DNA of 21,165 nucleotides from a virus, in IMG/VR virus record IMGVR_UViG_3300011252_000161, positions 1 to 21,165 of that record; one strand, written 5' to 3'. Numbering within the stretch: the stretch's first letter is position 1; every line of letters starts with the position of its first letter. Of this stretch, positions 8,849 to 15,374 are shown in pieces. The notes under the pieces were generated by a model. The model was given only the letters and a program-made list of their open reading frames with translations. It was not told the DNA's origin and made no database searches. A program made the translations under genes and the position numbers.

Positions 8849-9268
8849 ATGGATAAATTAATAGAACAACAAGGAATAGATGCTTATATAGAAACAGAAT
8901 TTCCCTTGACTGTATTTAAATCTTGGGATGTTGTTTTAGGGTTTTTTAGCGAAGTAAAAAGCAAAGCAGATAAAGACTCACAAGAAATATATGACAAATT
9001 ACCAGAAATGGTTAAAGTTTATCGTGGTATTCTTGTTAAAGATAATCACAAAAGTAGTATAGGAGTTTCTTGGACAATAGATGTCAAGGTTGCTTATATG
9101 TTTGCTTTACGATTTCAGCCACTAGGCGGAGATGCTATTGTTTATGAAGGAGAAATATACAAGAAAGATATTTTATTTTTCACAAATGCGAGAGAAGAAT
9201 CAGAAGTAATATTAAATCCCGATGATATGATTTGGGTTGAAGAAAAAGAAATAAAAGAGGACAAATAA
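8849..9268 (+). CDS. Putative ADP-ribosyltransferase-fold protein
   Basis: 139 residues, the first gene after the control region. Three blocks match the R-S-E signature of ADP-ribosyltransferases in the right order. They are VYRGIL with Arg59, VSWTIDVKVAYMFALRF with the Ser-Trp-Thr at 74-76, and REESEVIL with a Glu-x-Glu at 117-119. The expected beta-strand IVYEGEIYK lies between the last two. Such enzymes transfer ADP-ribose from NAD+ to a target. Phage versions such as T4 Alt and ModA modify host RNA polymerase and other proteins early in infection, and position at the head of the early operon fits that. The target is unknown, and the first 50 residues match nothing I recognise. The fold call is from motifs only. 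Confidence 0.6.
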   Translation: MDKLIEQQGIDAYIETEFPLTVFKSWDVVLGFFSEVKSKADKDSQEIYDKLPEMVKVYRGILVKDNHKSSIGVSWTIDVKVAYMFALRFQPLGGDAIVYEGEIYKKDILFFTNAREESEVILNPDDMIWVEEKEIKEDK

Positions 9269-10939: not shown

Positions 10940-11009
10940 AGTGTTCGCTTGGTATATGCTTTTTCAGATTTTAAGAGCCGTCATAAATAATGGATTAATT
11001 CGTGGCTAA
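10872..11009 (+). CDS. Small membrane protein in an overlapping frame
   Basis: A 45-residue frame from ATG 10872 to TAA 11007-11009. A strong Shine-Dalgarno (AGAGGAG, 10858-10864) lies 7 bases before the ATG, much better than most starts here. It begins with a basic segment (MNRNKYIRKQESQLDK) and continues with one hydrophobic segment (MMTVCKVFAWYMLFQILRAV). It overlaps the upstream gene by 68 bases out of frame and ends in an 8-base overlap (GTGGCTAA) with the replication gene. It accounts for the stretch 10940-11001 that would otherwise be empty. The function is unknown. Confidence 0.6.
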   Translation: MNRNKYIRKQESQLDKIMMTVCKVFAWYMLFQILRAVINNGLIRG

Positions 11010-11790
11010 ACGTTTCGTCGATACAAGTATTTTCCGGAAGCGTTGGATTAGAAAACTTGATCCGAATATGAAGTTGTTTTGGGTATATTTATTAACAGAT
11101 TGTGACCACGCTGGTATTTGGGAAGTAGATATTGAACGTGCAGCATTTCAGCTTGGTGTAAAGCTTGATGAACAAACTATACTAAAAACCTTTAATCGTA
11201 AGATAGTGCCATTTAAAGATGGTAAGTGGTTTTTGCCTAAATTCATTGAATATCAGTATGGTGAACTAAATGAAAAAGTAAATGCACACAAATCTGTAAT
11301 AAAGTTATTAACAAAATATGGATTAAATGTGGAAAACCAACAGTTGCCCAACAGTTGCCCAACTGTTAAATCAACTCATTTAACTGTTATGGATATAGAT
11401 AAGGATAAGGATAAAGATAAAGACAATAAGAAAAAAGGCAAAAAAGAACAATTAGAAGAAATAAAACTAAACTTACCTAAGTATTCAAAAGATTTTCCAC
11501 ATTTAAATATTAAATGGTATTACGATTCGTTTGTTGATTACTTGGATTCTAATGATAAACGATATAAAAATTACGCTTCAGCATTTAAAAACTGTTGCAG
11601 ACAAGAATGGTACAAAGACCGACCAAATTCAACTAAAGCCGGTAAATCTAAATCAAGTACAATTGTGATTGCTTGTCCTTCTGGTCACGTACAAAGAGAA
11701 GCAAGTAAAGGTGTTCGAGCCGTATGTCCAGAATGTCACGAACAGTTGAAGCCAATAGAAGAAATACAGATAAACAGGGCGATTGCCTAG
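11002..11790 (+). CDS. Replication initiator / replisome-organizer-like protein
   Basis: 262 residues from GTG 11002, within the GTGGCTAA overlap. The N-terminal 110 residues (KLFWVYLLTDCDHAGIWEVD, FLPKFIEYQYGEL, KSVIKLLTKYGL) resemble the winged-helix N-terminal domain of phage replisome organizers. A linker of Asp-Lys repeats (about 131-142) follows, then a helical domain of DnaD or helicase-loader type (WYYDSFVDYLDSNDKRYKN, FKNCCRQEWYKDR). The C-terminus carries a Cys/His cluster (CPSGH and CPECHEQ) that could bind zinc. The gene contains iteron-like DNA repeats at 11338-11389. The expected role is to bind the origin and recruit the host helicase. No phage polymerase or helicase gene is seen in the window, consistent with use of host machinery. 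Confidence 0.68.
   Translation: MAKRFVDTSIFRKRWIRKLDPNMKLFWVYLLTDCDHAGIWEVDIERAAFQLGVKLDEQTILKTFNRKIVPFKDGKWFLPKFIEYQYGELNEKVNAHKSVIKLLTKYGLNVENQQLPNSCPTVKSTHLTVMDIDKDKDKDKDNKKKGKKEQLEEIKLNLPKYSKDFPHLNIKWYYDSFVDYLDSNDKRYKNYASAFKNCCRQEWYKDRPNSTKAGKSKSSTIVIACPSGHVQREASKGVRAVCPECHEQLKPIEEIQINRAIA
11338..11389 (+). repeat. Iteron-like repeats inside the initiator gene: candidate replication origin
   Basis: Four near-dyad 9-mers occur: CAACAGTTG (11338), CAACAGTTG (11349), CAACTGTTA (11360) and TAACTGTTA (11381). They are spaced 11, 11 and 21 bases apart, about one or two helical turns, with a degenerate CAACTCATT (11372) between the last two. Because 11 is not a multiple of 3, the repeats are read in different frames (QQLP, then NSCP, then PTV). 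They are therefore conserved as DNA and not as protein. A purine-rich asymmetric stretch (11390-11460) follows. This is the layout of the lambda origin, where iterons and an AT-rich arm lie within gene O. Confidence 0.6.
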
Positions 11791-11800
11791 ATGAGATATT

Positions 11801-12175
11801 ATGCCAAGAAAACCAAGCCGAAAAACCCTCGTAAAGAACCTTGATAAAGCCGTTTCAATATACATTAGACAACGAGACAAGTTCTGTGTACAATGCGGAA
11901 CTTCCGAGAATCTCACGAATGGTCATATCTTCACACGGAAAAACTATTCAACCCGGTTTGACATATCGAATGATGGTAATTGTCATTGCCAATGTTGGTC
12001 TTGCAACTTTAAACACGGCTACGACCAATGGGATTACTTCAAATGGTACATCGACAAGTTCGGACAAGAGAAGTTTGACGAATTACGAAGGCGGCATAAG
12101 ACTGTGCAAAAATACAAAGACTATGATTTGGAAGAATTGTTGAATGAAATTAAAAGCACATCAAAGAATAATTAG
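11801..12175 (+). CDS. NinG-like recombination nuclease
   Basis: 124 residues, basic N-terminus (MPRKPSRKTLVKNLDKAV), then RQRDKFCVQCGTSENLTNGH, DISNDGNCHCQCWSCNFKHG and KWYIDKFGQEKFDELRRR. The CxxC pair, the GH motif, the later C-x-C-x2-C cluster and the final KFGxxxFxEL helix match the phage NinG (lambda Rap-related) family. These are HNH-like zinc proteins linked to recombination and Holliday junction processing. NinG proteins usually have a longer N-terminal part, so this is a compact version. Its neighbours, a single-strand annealing protein and a replication initiator, support the role. It overlaps the Mom-like gene by 32 bases if that gene uses its first ATG. Confidence 0.72.
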   Translation: MPRKPSRKTLVKNLDKAVSIYIRQRDKFCVQCGTSENLTNGHIFTRKNYSTRFDISNDGNCHCQCWSCNFKHGYDQWDYFKWYIDKFGQEKFDELRRRHKTVQKYKDYDLEELLNEIKSTSKNN

Positions 12176-12986
12176 AGAACGTATGGCAATTGAAGAAGAA
12201 CATAATCTATTTGGAAATTGGTGGAAAAACATAGACACAACAAAAAAAAACGCTATCGTTAAAGAAATAACGAGACAAACCGCTTTGCCTGTTATTGAAA
12301 AATATGAATGGCTTGGTACTCTGCCTGTTAATTATAAAAAATTTGCGGGTATTTATTTTAATACTGCATTAGCGGGTGTTGTTTGTTTTGTTGATGTAAA
12401 GTTTGGCGGAAAGTTTACTTTGTTTAATTATCCAGCAATATGTCTTGGTAGAGGTGCGTGTGTACATTGGTGTCCGGACTATGGTGGCTCGTTTTTAATT
12501 CAAAAAAGCATAAAATTACTTTTTGGCAAAGAAGAACCAAAATATTTAGTTGCTTTTACAGACTCAAAAGCCGGAGAAATTGGAACAATTTATCAAGCTT
12601 GTGGTTGGGTATATTTGGGTAGTAAAAAAACCAAAGAATGGATTGACTCGAATGGTAAGAGATATGATATAAACACACCTTCTGTTCGTGCCGTTTCTGG
12701 TTTTGCGAGAAAAAACAACAAAGATTTAAAGGCGACAAAAGAACAAAGGCAAAAACAAATAGAAAAAATGTTAAATGAAGGTTATAAATTGGCTGAAGGT
12801 CCAATTAGAGGAAAATACGCAACAGTTATTGGTTCAAAAAATAAAATTTACAGACAAATGCTAAAAAAAATATTAAAAAAATCAAAACCATATCCAAAAA
12901 GAACAGATGCGGTGGAAGTATCAAGAGAGATACACACTAATACCATTGGTGAGGGCAAGGGGCAGTTCCTTGACACCGCTCAATAA
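12144..12986 (+). CDS. Mom-like DNA adenine modification protein
   Basis: 280 residues with the blocks I associate with the phage Mu Mom family, which has an acetyltransferase-type fold. They are AGIYFNTALAGVVCFVD (68-84), LGRGACVHWCPDYGGSFLI (101-119), FTDSKAGEIGTIYQACGWVY (138-157), and near the C-terminus YATVIGSKNK with PYPKR (249-253). Mu Mom converts adenine to N6-carbamoylmethyladenine in phage DNA, which blocks many host restriction enzymes. Nothing here proves the same chemical product. The first ATG overlaps the NinG-like gene by 32 bases; ATG 12183 is an alternative start with no overlap. Mu mom is expressed only late and under tight control, whereas here the gene sits inside the early/replication operon. 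No Mu-like com gene precedes it. Confidence 0.75.
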   Translation: MKLKAHQRIIRERMAIEEEHNLFGNWWKNIDTTKKNAIVKEITRQTALPVIEKYEWLGTLPVNYKKFAGIYFNTALAGVVCFVDVKFGGKFTLFNYPAICLGRGACVHWCPDYGGSFLIQKSIKLLFGKEEPKYLVAFTDSKAGEIGTIYQACGWVYLGSKKTKEWIDSNGKRYDINTPSVRAVSGFARKNNKDLKATKEQRQKQIEKMLNEGYKLAEGPIRGKYATVIGSKNKIYRQMLKKILKKSKPYPKRTDAVEVSREIHTNTIGEGKGQFLDTAQ

Positions 12987-13318: not shown

Positions 13319-14254
13319 ATGAGAGCGATATGTCCGAAATGTAATTCAACACATATTCAGAAAAAAGGTGTTGTTTATTCCAAAGGTTTTGAATGCAATG
13401 TACAAAGATATAAGTGTGTTGGTTGTTGTAAGCAATTTCAAGTTCCAAGAGATTCACCAAAAGTTGATTTACCTAAAATTTTATTGTTCGATATAGAGAC
13501 TGCACCAATGGAAGTATATGTCTGGGGATTATATAAGCAGTTTATTCCACATACTAATATTATTAAAGATAGTGACGGCGAAGAAAAGTCTTGGTATGTA
13601 TTATCGTGGGCGGCAAAGTGGTTGTATGACGAGAATGTTGTATCTGACATAGTTACACCAGAAGAAACAAAAAAACGTGACGATAAGCGTGTATTAGAAT
13701 CTATCTGGAAGCTATTAGACGAAGCAGATATTGTTATAGGGCATAATGGCGATAGGTTTGATCTAAGAAAGTTAAATGCACGATTTATTGATAACAATAT
13801 TAAACCACCTTCACCATTTAGGACCATAGATACGTTAAAAGTAGCACGTAGGGAATTTGCTTTTGTTTCATATAAACAAGACTACTTGACAAAACACTTT
13901 AAGTTAGAGCAAAAACTTTCAACAGAGTTTCAATTATGGGTAGATTGTATTCACGGAAATCAAAAAAGATTAGACGAAATGGAAGAGTATAACCGCCACG
14001 ATGTTATGGGATTGGAAGAAGTTTACTTAAAACTTAGACCATACATAAAGAATCACCCGAACTTAGGTGTATTAATGGATCAAGATGTTTGTCCTAATTG
14101 TGGTTGTGAGTTTTTAGATGAAACAGATACAAGTTATTTTACATCAGCAAACAAGTTTCCTGTGTATAGATGTCAAGGTTGCAAAACACCATATATTAGA
14201 CACAAGAAAAATTCTAATTATGTGCAAACTAACTTGAGAAGTGTACCAAAATGA
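13319..14254 (+). CDS. DnaQ-like 3'-5' exonuclease flanked by two zinc ribbons
   Basis: 311 residues with a good Shine-Dalgarno (AGGAGA, about 13310). Residues 1-45 form a zinc ribbon (C5-x2-C8 and C33-x2-C36) of the kind found in transposase-associated ribbons. A DEDD exonuclease follows. ExoI is LLFDIETAP with Asp58 and Glu60, ExoII is GHNGDRFDL with Asp148, and ExoIII is YNRHDV with Tyr224 and Asp228. The spacing suits the RNase H-like exonuclease family. Residues 258-288 form a second ribbon (CPNC and CQGC). The protein may proofread, trim ends for annealing, or process RNA; no polymerase domain is present. It overlaps the next small gene by ATGA. Confidence 0.75.
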   Translation: MRAICPKCNSTHIQKKGVVYSKGFECNVQRYKCVGCCKQFQVPRDSPKVDLPKILLFDIETAPMEVYVWGLYKQFIPHTNIIKDSDGEEKSWYVLSWAAKWLYDENVVSDIVTPEETKKRDDKRVLESIWKLLDEADIVIGHNGDRFDLRKLNARFIDNNIKPPSPFRTIDTLKVARREFAFVSYKQDYLTKHFKLEQKLSTEFQLWVDCIHGNQKRLDEMEEYNRHDVMGLEEVYLKLRPYIKNHPNLGVLMDQDVCPNCGCEFLDETDTSYFTSANKFPVYRCQGCKTPYIRHKKNSNYVQTNLRSVPK

Positions 14255-14646: not shown

Positions 14647-15006
14647 ATGATACGCAAAATACATAGTGCTTGGCATATCCACAGCTTATTAAAACCAGAT
14701 TTATTTTGCAAAGTTTGCAGTAATAGTTTGTCGCATAAGCGTTTATCAGTAAAAATAAACAGATGTTCTATGTGTGGTTTAGATGTTAATAAGCATAAAT
14801 GGAATGGTGGTTGTTATTGTATAAGCTTAAATGCGGATGGTTTAAAAGAACAAGAAAGTCCATACGCTCACAAACCAAGCTGCGGCAAAAGTAGTGAGTC
14901 AAAATCTAATTATACTCTTGATTATATAGATGAATACTATGATGGATATGGTTATTACGATGCAATAAGAAGGAATATAGATCACGAGGAATTTTATGCC
15001 AAATAA
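14647..15006 (+). CDS. Cysteine-rich putative zinc protein
   Basis: 119 residues with CKVC (21-24), CSMC (40-43) and a CYC near residue 57, plus several His. This suggests one or two zinc sites in the first 60 residues. The C-terminal part is acidic and Tyr-rich (YIDEYYDGYGYYDAIRRNID). The function is unknown. Its 3' end overlaps the next lysine-rich gene by 11 bases, in an operon with several zinc proteins. Confidence 0.5.
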   Translation: MIRKIHSAWHIHSLLKPDLFCKVCSNSLSHKRLSVKINRCSMCGLDVNKHKWNGGCYCISLNADGLKEQESPYAHKPSCGKSSESKSNYTLDYIDEYYDGYGYYDAIRRNIDHEEFYAK

Positions 15007-15118
15007 AGATGCAAAACGTAAAAAACAATTGAAGGCTAAGAAGCGTAAAGCTATTGCCGAATATAAAGCAAAGAAACGAAGGGAGAAGAAAGATGCAAGA
15101 AAAAAAGAACTATCTTAA
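14996..15118 (+). CDS. Very small lysine-rich protein
   Basis: A 40-residue frame from ATG 14996 to TAA 15116-15118, with a strong Shine-Dalgarno GAGGA (14986-14990) 5 bases before the ATG. It is almost entirely Lys, Arg, Ala and Glu (KRKKQLKAKKRKAI, AKKRREKKDARKKEL), so it should be a single basic helix able to bind DNA or RNA. It overlaps both neighbours. The ribosome binding site and clean fit support a real gene, although composition alone could mislead. Confidence 0.45.
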   Translation: MPNKDAKRKKQLKAKKRKAIAEYKAKKRREKKDARKKELS

Positions 15119-15374
15119 TGGTGCAGTAATAAAAGAACACGCTTTTGATAATGGTGGTAAAATATTAAAAATGTGGATAAAAGTAGATGAATTTATTGCA
15201 GAATTAAAAAAGATTGAAAAGAAAGGATCGGTCAATCTTGTCATATCAAAAAGATTAGAAGTATCTAAAAAAGGTATAACTCACAGTATGTATGAAGATA
15301 CTTACAAACCAAAAGAAATAGATCGACAAGTAAACAATGACGATGAAGATGACGATGACGATTACCCATTTTGA
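15093..15374 (+). CDS. Putative single-stranded DNA-binding protein with SSB-type acidic tail
   Basis: 93 residues from ATG 15093, chosen because GGGAG (15081-15085) lies 7 bases before it; a longer frame from TTG 15054 lacks such a site. The N-terminal 75 residues are beta-like and basic (YLNGAVIKEHAFDNGGKIL, GSVNLVISKRLEVSKKG), compatible with a small OB-like fold. The C-terminus is NNDDEDDDDDYPF (81-93). It ends in Pro-Phe after an acidic run, just as bacterial SSB ends in DDDIPF and T7 gp2.5 ends in an acidic aromatic tail. Those tails recruit replication and repair proteins. The neighbouring annealing protein, exonuclease and initiator support this role. No sequence similarity to a named SSB family was recognised. 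Confidence 0.55.
   Translation: MQEKKNYLNGAVIKEHAFDNGGKILKMWIKVDEFIAELKKIEKKGSVNLVISKRLEVSKKGITHSMYEDTYKPKEIDRQVNNDDEDDDDDYPF

Follow-up and report, generated by a model that had tools for sequence, protein, structure and literature searches.

The DNA analyzed here (the window, 21,165 bases) is a virus record in which all listed open reading frames (ORFs) of at least 140 aa lie on the plus strand. At positions 15093..15374 (+), it carries a gene, denoted mini-SSB, that runs from ATG to TGA and encodes a protein of 93 aa plus stop (P0001) whose C-terminus consists of NNDDE followed by the last eight residues, DDDDDYPF. A ribosome-binding-site-like hexamer read from the sequence, AGGGAG (15080..15085, +), is located seven bases before the ATG. 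Three parts of the protein can be distinguished: a folded core (residues 5-73; 15105..15311, +), defined by the invariant columns of 82 members of the family described below and by AlphaFold2 modeling; a variable disordered linker (residues 74-88; 15312..15356, +), defined by pLDDT and a mean column entropy of 2.87 bits; and the tip DDYPF (residues 89-93; 15357..15371, +), of the SSB-Ct type, defined by a mean column entropy of 0.68 bits and by profile comparison. The start of the gene is overlapped by 26 nt by a Lys/Arg-rich ORF of 40 aa (14996..15118, +). A similar overlapping ORF precedes mini-SSB in 8 of 12 loci (L136, L212, L210, L239, L135, L133, L142, and L146), which suggests translational coupling.

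Upstream of mini-SSB, the window encodes a Sak-type single-strand annealing protein that is a possible partner of P0001 (9806..10393, +; PF06378, E = 1.2e-48; phrog_659, E = 6.4e-56), a NinG/Rap-type junction endonuclease (11801..12175, +; PF05766, E = 2.6e-12; phrog_5034, E = 1.6e-21), a Mom-like DNA modification protein (12144-12986, +; PF25680, E = 6.5e-17), and a DnaQ-like DNA polymerase exonuclease subunit (13319..14254, +; phrog_403, E = 1.5e-84). The presence of the Mom-like protein implies that the phage may modify its own DNA. A replication-organizer-like protein, labeled by eye and assigned no function by Pfam or PHROGs, is encoded at 11002..11790 (+). A further ORF of 139 aa (8849-9268, +) shows the pattern VYRG...SWT...A..FA and, by eye, is a putative ADP-ribosyltransferase.

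P0001 itself matched 0 families of Pfam, PHROGs, and NCBIfam at E ≤ 10, and its one match among PDB sequences, to a non-SSB protein, was at chance level (E = 1.4). A tblastn search with P0001, the A1 consensus, and the L209, L131, and L211 proteins retrieved nothing at E ≤ 1 from 50,697 deposited phage records, and a tblastn search with P0001 retrieved nothing from 72,556 plasmids. As a full-length scan query, P0001 found no relatives among viral contigs, probably for lack of conservation in the selected 8-mers. The contigs were scanned with a 55-residue piece of the core, then with a consensus, and then with alignments. The core piece, which lacks the tip, yielded 7 closely similar loci, with all 6 intact ORFs ending in DDLPF and the seventh cut off; successive, overlapping scans yielded 121, 259, 327, and 381 confirmed stretches. 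The family compiled from these matches comprises at least 140 distinct proteins, that of the window included, encoded on viral contigs and in four genomes of Marinimicrobia; this count is a lower bound, the proteins being drawn from at most 80 loci per scan, fewer than all matches. Duplicates, ORFs running off the contig, a copy of the window (L001), and two ORFs without a start Met (L140 and L154) were left out before counting. Both L140 and L154 end in PF. Among the matches kept, the nearest to P0001 are L212, L210, and L239 (61-63% identity), and much of the gene content of the window is common to L210 and L239.

The best PHROG matches of 82 family members were to two families of unknown function, phrog_3251 (one member, E = 1.1e-4) and phrog_24909 (three members, best E = 2.6e-4). 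Among the PHROG SSB families, phrog_378 matched six of the 82 members (best E = 0.011), phrog_18154 two (0.0081), and phrog_4932 one (0.11), and phrog_44 matched two relatives at E of 0.71-1.3; P0001 gave no significant profile match to any of these four families. PF08804 (gp32 DNA binding protein like) showed weak matches in 3 of the 82 (best E = 0.02). No paper describing such a family was found among open-license PMC papers searched by title and the start of the abstract. The SSB function that we propose below is already known, whereas the core is not: the libraries that were searched yielded no named family for the protein.

Conservation is highest in the tip of these proteins, lowest in the linker, and intermediate in the core, with mean column entropies across 82 representatives of 0.68 bits for the last five positions, 1.24 for the core, and 2.87 for the linker. 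The protein ends in PF in 134 of the 140 distinct family members, compared with 2 of 1,713 further ORFs of the same loci, and in [DE]-hydrophobic-PF in 119 of the 140, compared with none of the 1,713; this background consists of Met-started ORFs of at least 100 aa, some of which are perhaps not genes, and excludes family matches, loci numbered L240 and above, ORFs that lack Met, and proteins shorter than 100 aa. At least two acidic residues occur within the last ten in 135 of the 140 proteins, and the last four residues are DLPF in 110 of the 139 relatives. A profile restricted to the core recruited 148 distinct closed ORFs, 142 of which end in PF. The codons of the tip vary synonymously (CCA 68, CCG 27, CCT 25, and CCC 13 for Pro; TTC 74 and TTT 59 for Phe), so that what is preserved is the protein sequence of the tip. 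Judged by these comparisons of sequences, the tip is of the bacterial SSB type and is under strong purifying selection. A sequence-only reading of the window, which had given the coordinates of the ORF and the DDDDDYPF tail exactly, had likened this tail to the bacterial SSB tip and had recognized no SSB family in the body of the protein; the conservation of the tip across the family bears out the former observation, and the library searches with P0001 agree with the latter.

The PF end is missing from six of the 140 proteins, of which three end in MPWDD or MPWDE, two in DDFF, and one in DEVW. The MPWDD/MPWDE proteins (L187:5892-6155, L192:9084-9356, and L208:9992-10264) carry Trp instead of Phe, with two acidic residues after it; such ends, in which the aromatic residue is no longer last, may mark a different partner pocket. 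The Tyr in the tip of P0001 (DYPF) is the sole case among the 140. Tail length varies between 5 and 32 residues, which leaves some members with hardly any linker.

In the alignment of 82 members (A6), G45, G61, T63, and H64 are invariant, and Y7, G22, L38, W46, I51, R54, E56, S58, K60, Y65, A66, P73, P92, and F93 are conserved in at least 90% of the sequences. Conserved basic and aromatic positions include K5 (73 of 82), Y7 (81), W46 (77), R54 (81), K60 (79), H64 (82), and Y65 (80). P0001 retains the four invariant residues together with P92 and F93, and thus both the core and the tip by which family members are recognized. It has Ser at positions 46 and 65, which are occupied by Trp in 77 and by Tyr in 80 of the 82 members, respectively, and Met at position 66; L210, L212, and L239 share the Ser at position 46 and retain the Tyr at position 65. 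W46 and Y65, both missing from P0001, are aromatic residues that might naturally be expected to stack on bases. The net charge of the core has a median of +1 and ranges from -4 to +6 among the 82 representatives, with P0001 at +6.

AlphaFold2 modeling based on A6 predicted a β-β-α-β-β core (mean pLDDT 79.7, pTM 0.58) with strands at residues 11-17, 23-29, 49-53, and 64-68 and a helix at 31-41; the ten-residue blocks from 11 to 70 have mean pLDDT values of 88-94, and residues 77-91 fall below 50. A model built on a narrow alignment (A2; mean pLDDT 61.1) was set aside. A Foldseek search of the PDB with the A6-based model retrieved no match at E ≤ 0.001 (best E = 1.1) and no SSB among the first 50 matches. 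With VIA-align, 4 of 999 aligned PDB chains reached a Z-score of 2, and the two listed, within the stated noise of the tool, are SmpB (2czj_C, Z-score = 2.5, rmsd 3.7 over 68 residues; 1wjx, Z-score = 2.4), which we take to be an OB-like barrel; that list contains no canonical SSB chain, an absence that excludes nothing. Among predicted viral proteins in BFVD, five share the fold at E ≤ 0.001, all with uninformative names: A0A516M1M0 (51% identity, E = 1.2e-9, TM 0.82) and four others with 17-27% identity; the entries sharing the fold include A0A6J5N3M3 and A0A6J5R471. A protein of 79 aa from Cellulophaga phage phi17:2, gp007 (L278:2743-2982), shows a similar pattern by eye, without the tip, and its gene adjoins that of uracil-DNA glycosylase, close to the genes for DNA polymerase I and primase. 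It is probably the BFVD entry R9ZYI3 (E = 0.13), the two being tied by length only; the A6 profile gave no match to gp007. From the Marinimicrobia and Cellulophaga links, the habitat of the viral contigs is probably marine.

The predicted fold bears on the origin of the core. One possibility is that the family is an extremely divergent true canonical SSB that descends, tip included, from a bacterial or phage SSB, its OB fold having shrunk to four strands and one helix. By eye, the elements after the first strand, in the order strand-helix-strand-strand, look like the latter half of the OB domain of SSB, and the SmpB matches and the weak PF08804 matches point in the same direction. Against this origin, an hhalign comparison of the core with nine canonical Marinimicrobia SSBs gave a probability of 0.2% over seven columns, the Z-score of 2.5 is within noise, and SSBs are missing from the first 50 Foldseek matches; we consider it unlikely, if still a serious candidate. 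When full-length profiles were compared with canonical SSB by hhalign, only eight columns of the tip aligned. By sequence, the core is outside PF00436, and because it has no detectable relationship to canonical SSB, the likeness of the family to SSB may be convergent.

Gene neighborhoods were compared across 80 distinct loci (the window included, two cellular loci left out), considering same-strand ORFs of at least 70 aa within 6 kb, with each cluster of neighbors named from one member. The replication-organizer-like cluster is present in 57 of the 80 loci, at a median of 0.4 kb downstream of mini-SSB, the copy in the window being 4 kb upstream. A protein with a DnaA C-terminal domain (PF08299, E = 9.8e-12) is encoded in 40 loci, a DNA repair exonuclease (phrog_704, E = 2.4e-71) in 32, a VRR-NUC-type protein in 18 (PF08774 at E = 2.5e-4, just under the cut-off; phrog_5702, Holliday junction resolvase, E = 3.9e-13), a DnaQ-like protein in 17, and NinG in 14. 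In 67 of the 80 loci, at least one of these six clusters of replication or recombination genes lies on the strand of mini-SSB and no more than 6 kb away; the 13 loci that contain none include some short contigs and four of 19-20 kb. A gene for a protein of about 127-160 aa (L209:606-998 and relatives) is present in 47 loci, at a median of 1.5 kb upstream of mini-SSB. Its 127-aa product resembles an annealase by eye, but we assign it no function: it had nothing significant in Pfam or among PDB sequences, and its best PHROG match, phrog_22961 (E = 5.1e-4), is to a family of no known function. A search for PF00436 was positive in 10 of 14 control genomes and in 0 of 20 viral records, which count the window among them and may be fragments.

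SSB-coated DNA is a hub of replication and repair, with the tip as the docking peptide. We consider it probable that mini-SSB is a small, non-canonical phage SSB that recruits SSB partners via its bacterial-type tip, and we propose that it works like bacterial SSB, yet lies outside the canonical SSB family by sequence. The core of about 70 residues would bind ssDNA arising from phage replication and recombination, and the disordered linker, variable in length, would carry the tip, usually D-D-L-P-F-COOH (DDYPF here). By analogy with the bacterial SSB tip and with the SSB of phage HK620, the tip would dock in the SSB pockets of partner proteins, bringing host replication and repair enzymes to phage ssDNA, and might also recruit the Sak annealase and the nucleases of the phage itself. 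We infer ssDNA binding by the core with less support than docking of the tip. The proposal of the sequence-only reading, a divergent phage SSB that recruits host factors, is partly supported, namely by the tip, the linker, the core, the gene setting, and the lack of PF00436 in the 20 viral records, but not in its implied relationship to SSB (0.2% in the profile comparison). As for an OB fold, which that reading had named as a check, structure prediction yielded a confident β-β-α-β-β core whose matches to known structures are weak on both counts (best E of 1.1 in the PDB; Z-scores of 2.4-2.5 to SmpB).

The docking step has published counterparts. In the E. coli work, partner proteins receive the C-terminal Phe of SSB in a hydrophobic pocket, where a basic lip and a basic ridge accommodate the carboxylate and the Asp residues, respectively; deletion of the terminal Phe or of the whole tip eliminates interactions with partners in vitro; and the minimal linker is 11-20 residues (PMC10164576). 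For phage HK620, the last six residues of its SSB, NDYPPF, are reported to be strongly involved in stimulating the annealase Sak4 (PMC5928155).

Several observations count against the SSB reading: P0001 departs from the family at W46, Y65, and the Tyr of the tip; the net charge of the core is only slightly positive, the PDB search returned no OB-fold match, and six family members have non-PF ends; 13 of the 80 loci lack the replication clusters, and tails can be as short as 5 residues, below the 11-20 residues of the minimal E. coli SSB linker. Some of these observations would fit a different function, namely that of a decoy or adaptor bearing an SSB tip, in which the core binds a phage protein, RNA, or dsDNA rather than ssDNA and the tip recruits or titrates SSB-binding proteins (for example, RecO, RecQ, RecG, exonuclease I, or primase), hijacking or blocking host defense or repair. 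The tip as the most conserved part, the near-neutral charge of many cores, the almost linkerless members, the lack of a match to any known ssDNA-binding fold, and the absence of W46 and Y65 from P0001 would all be in keeping with such a role. Yet the core itself is conserved, with basic and aromatic positions, the gene is mostly found among replication and recombination genes, and the common chromosomal gene order in three Marinimicrobia genomes (see below) would be disfavored for a host inhibitor; we regard the decoy or adaptor role as rather improbable. It concerns function, whereas the divergent OB origin discussed above concerns ancestry and is compatible with an SSB function; the likelihoods that we attach to these readings are not exclusive shares.

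The four cellular homologs (L125-L128) were recovered in a single scan of genomes of bacteria and archaea; L127 belongs to Marinimicrobia AG-390-N21, and L125, L126, and L128 are from the phylum and genus of L127. Among 245 genomes of this phylum searched with a profile, these four, out of seven from their genus, were the only ones with the small protein. L125, L126, and L127 share a common gene order that is not phage-like: with genes named by eye, these three copies are preceded by transporter, nth, amine-oxidase-like, and DNA-glycosylase-like genes and followed by a TPR gene and others. All four proteins have a Q/P-rich linker and end in IEDDDLPF; the nine canonical Marinimicrobia SSBs examined all have a PF end, as part of DDLPF in five. 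Three chromosomal relatives that were scanned against the libraries gave weak, sub-threshold C-terminal matches to TIGR00621, phrog_378, and phrog_18154, with TIGR00621 covering the C-terminal half only at 13.2-14.6 bits versus a cut-off of 53.95.

The possibility that the small protein replaced the canonical chromosomal SSB in this genus is raised by the fact that all four carrier genomes lack PF00436, which is present in 193 of the 245 genomes of the phylum, and that the sole genus member with PF00436, G161, lacks the small protein. However, G160 and G162 lack both proteins, the contrast within the genus (PF00436 in 0 of 4 carriers versus 1 of 3 non-carriers) is meaningless, and the gene order around ssb fits a break in the assembly beside a recurring domain. 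In G161, the order, with names assigned by eye, is a giant T9SS-type gene, ssb, plsC, and an M20 peptidase gene. In G001, contig C9 (2-904) ends inside a relative of the giant gene (47% identity, perhaps not an orthologue), and contig C44 (8-718) carries plsC (80% identity) a few bases from its start, so that ssb would fall in the gap between them. G002-G004, G160, and G162 yielded no close orthologue of plsC or M20, and the SSB of G161 as a query retrieved nothing at E ≤ 10 from the six remaining genus members, a result equally compatible with a gap and with a loss. A canonical ssb gene is located beside a giant gene in this Marinimicrobia genus (L252:2531-2956, -). The C-terminal part of the giant gene has 25 to 63 matches per genome in the seven genomes of the genus; this recurring domain may break assemblies at ssb, which makes profile-based calls of ssb absence unsafe there. 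The lack of PF00436 in the four carriers is probably due to an assembly gap, and replacement of the canonical SSB appears very improbable. Still less credible, to the point of being negligible, is that the tail is ordinary low-complexity sequence with a PF end owed to chance or functionless inheritance: the Asp-rich tail of P0001, taken alone, is of low complexity, but the PF end is found in 134 of the 140 family members against 2 of the 1,713 background ORFs, the entropy of the tip is lower than that of the core, and its codons change synonymously.

Understood as a phage SSB, mini-SSB resembles canonical SSB (PF00436 and TIGR00621), which usually binds ssDNA as a tetramer, in its layout of a conserved core, an unconserved disordered linker between core and tip, and an acidic, PF-ending tip that is present family-wide. 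It differs in the size of the core (about 70 versus about 110 residues), in a linker that is often much shorter, and in the lack of a detectable sequence relationship of the core. The HK620 SSB is likewise phage-encoded, has an SSB-type tip, and works with a phage annealase, which is Sak4 in HK620, compared with a Sak family protein (PF06378) in the window; it is described as a bona fide SSB, whereas the core of mini-SSB belongs to no SSB family found (PMC5928155). The atypical SSBs of the Bam35/phi29 group provide an earlier case of phage SSBs whose fold was termed novel; compared here by description alone, they are presented in the available portion of the source without mention of a tip of the SSB-Ct type (PMC8276246). 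ThermoDBP of Thermoproteales, again compared by description alone, is a precedent for a non-OB protein in the place of canonical SSB, and differs in being archaeal and dimeric with a leucine zipper (PMC8998557).

More tentatively, and with somewhat less than even confidence, we suggest that mini-SSB is a second, independently invented SSB of bacterial viruses: a β-β-α-β-β core unrelated to the OB fold, with a tip acquired by convergence or capture, would have plugged into the network of host SSB partners, spread widely in phages, probably marine, and become a chromosomal gene in one or more genera of Marinimicrobia.

If the SSB reading is correct, a large phage family has kept the docking peptide of SSB without the recognized core, which would show which part of SSB is fixed by evolution. 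The protein, of about 70 residues plus the tip, would also be a short test object for the entry of viruses into the host SSB network, and hundreds of phage genes now labeled "hypothetical" would gain a function.
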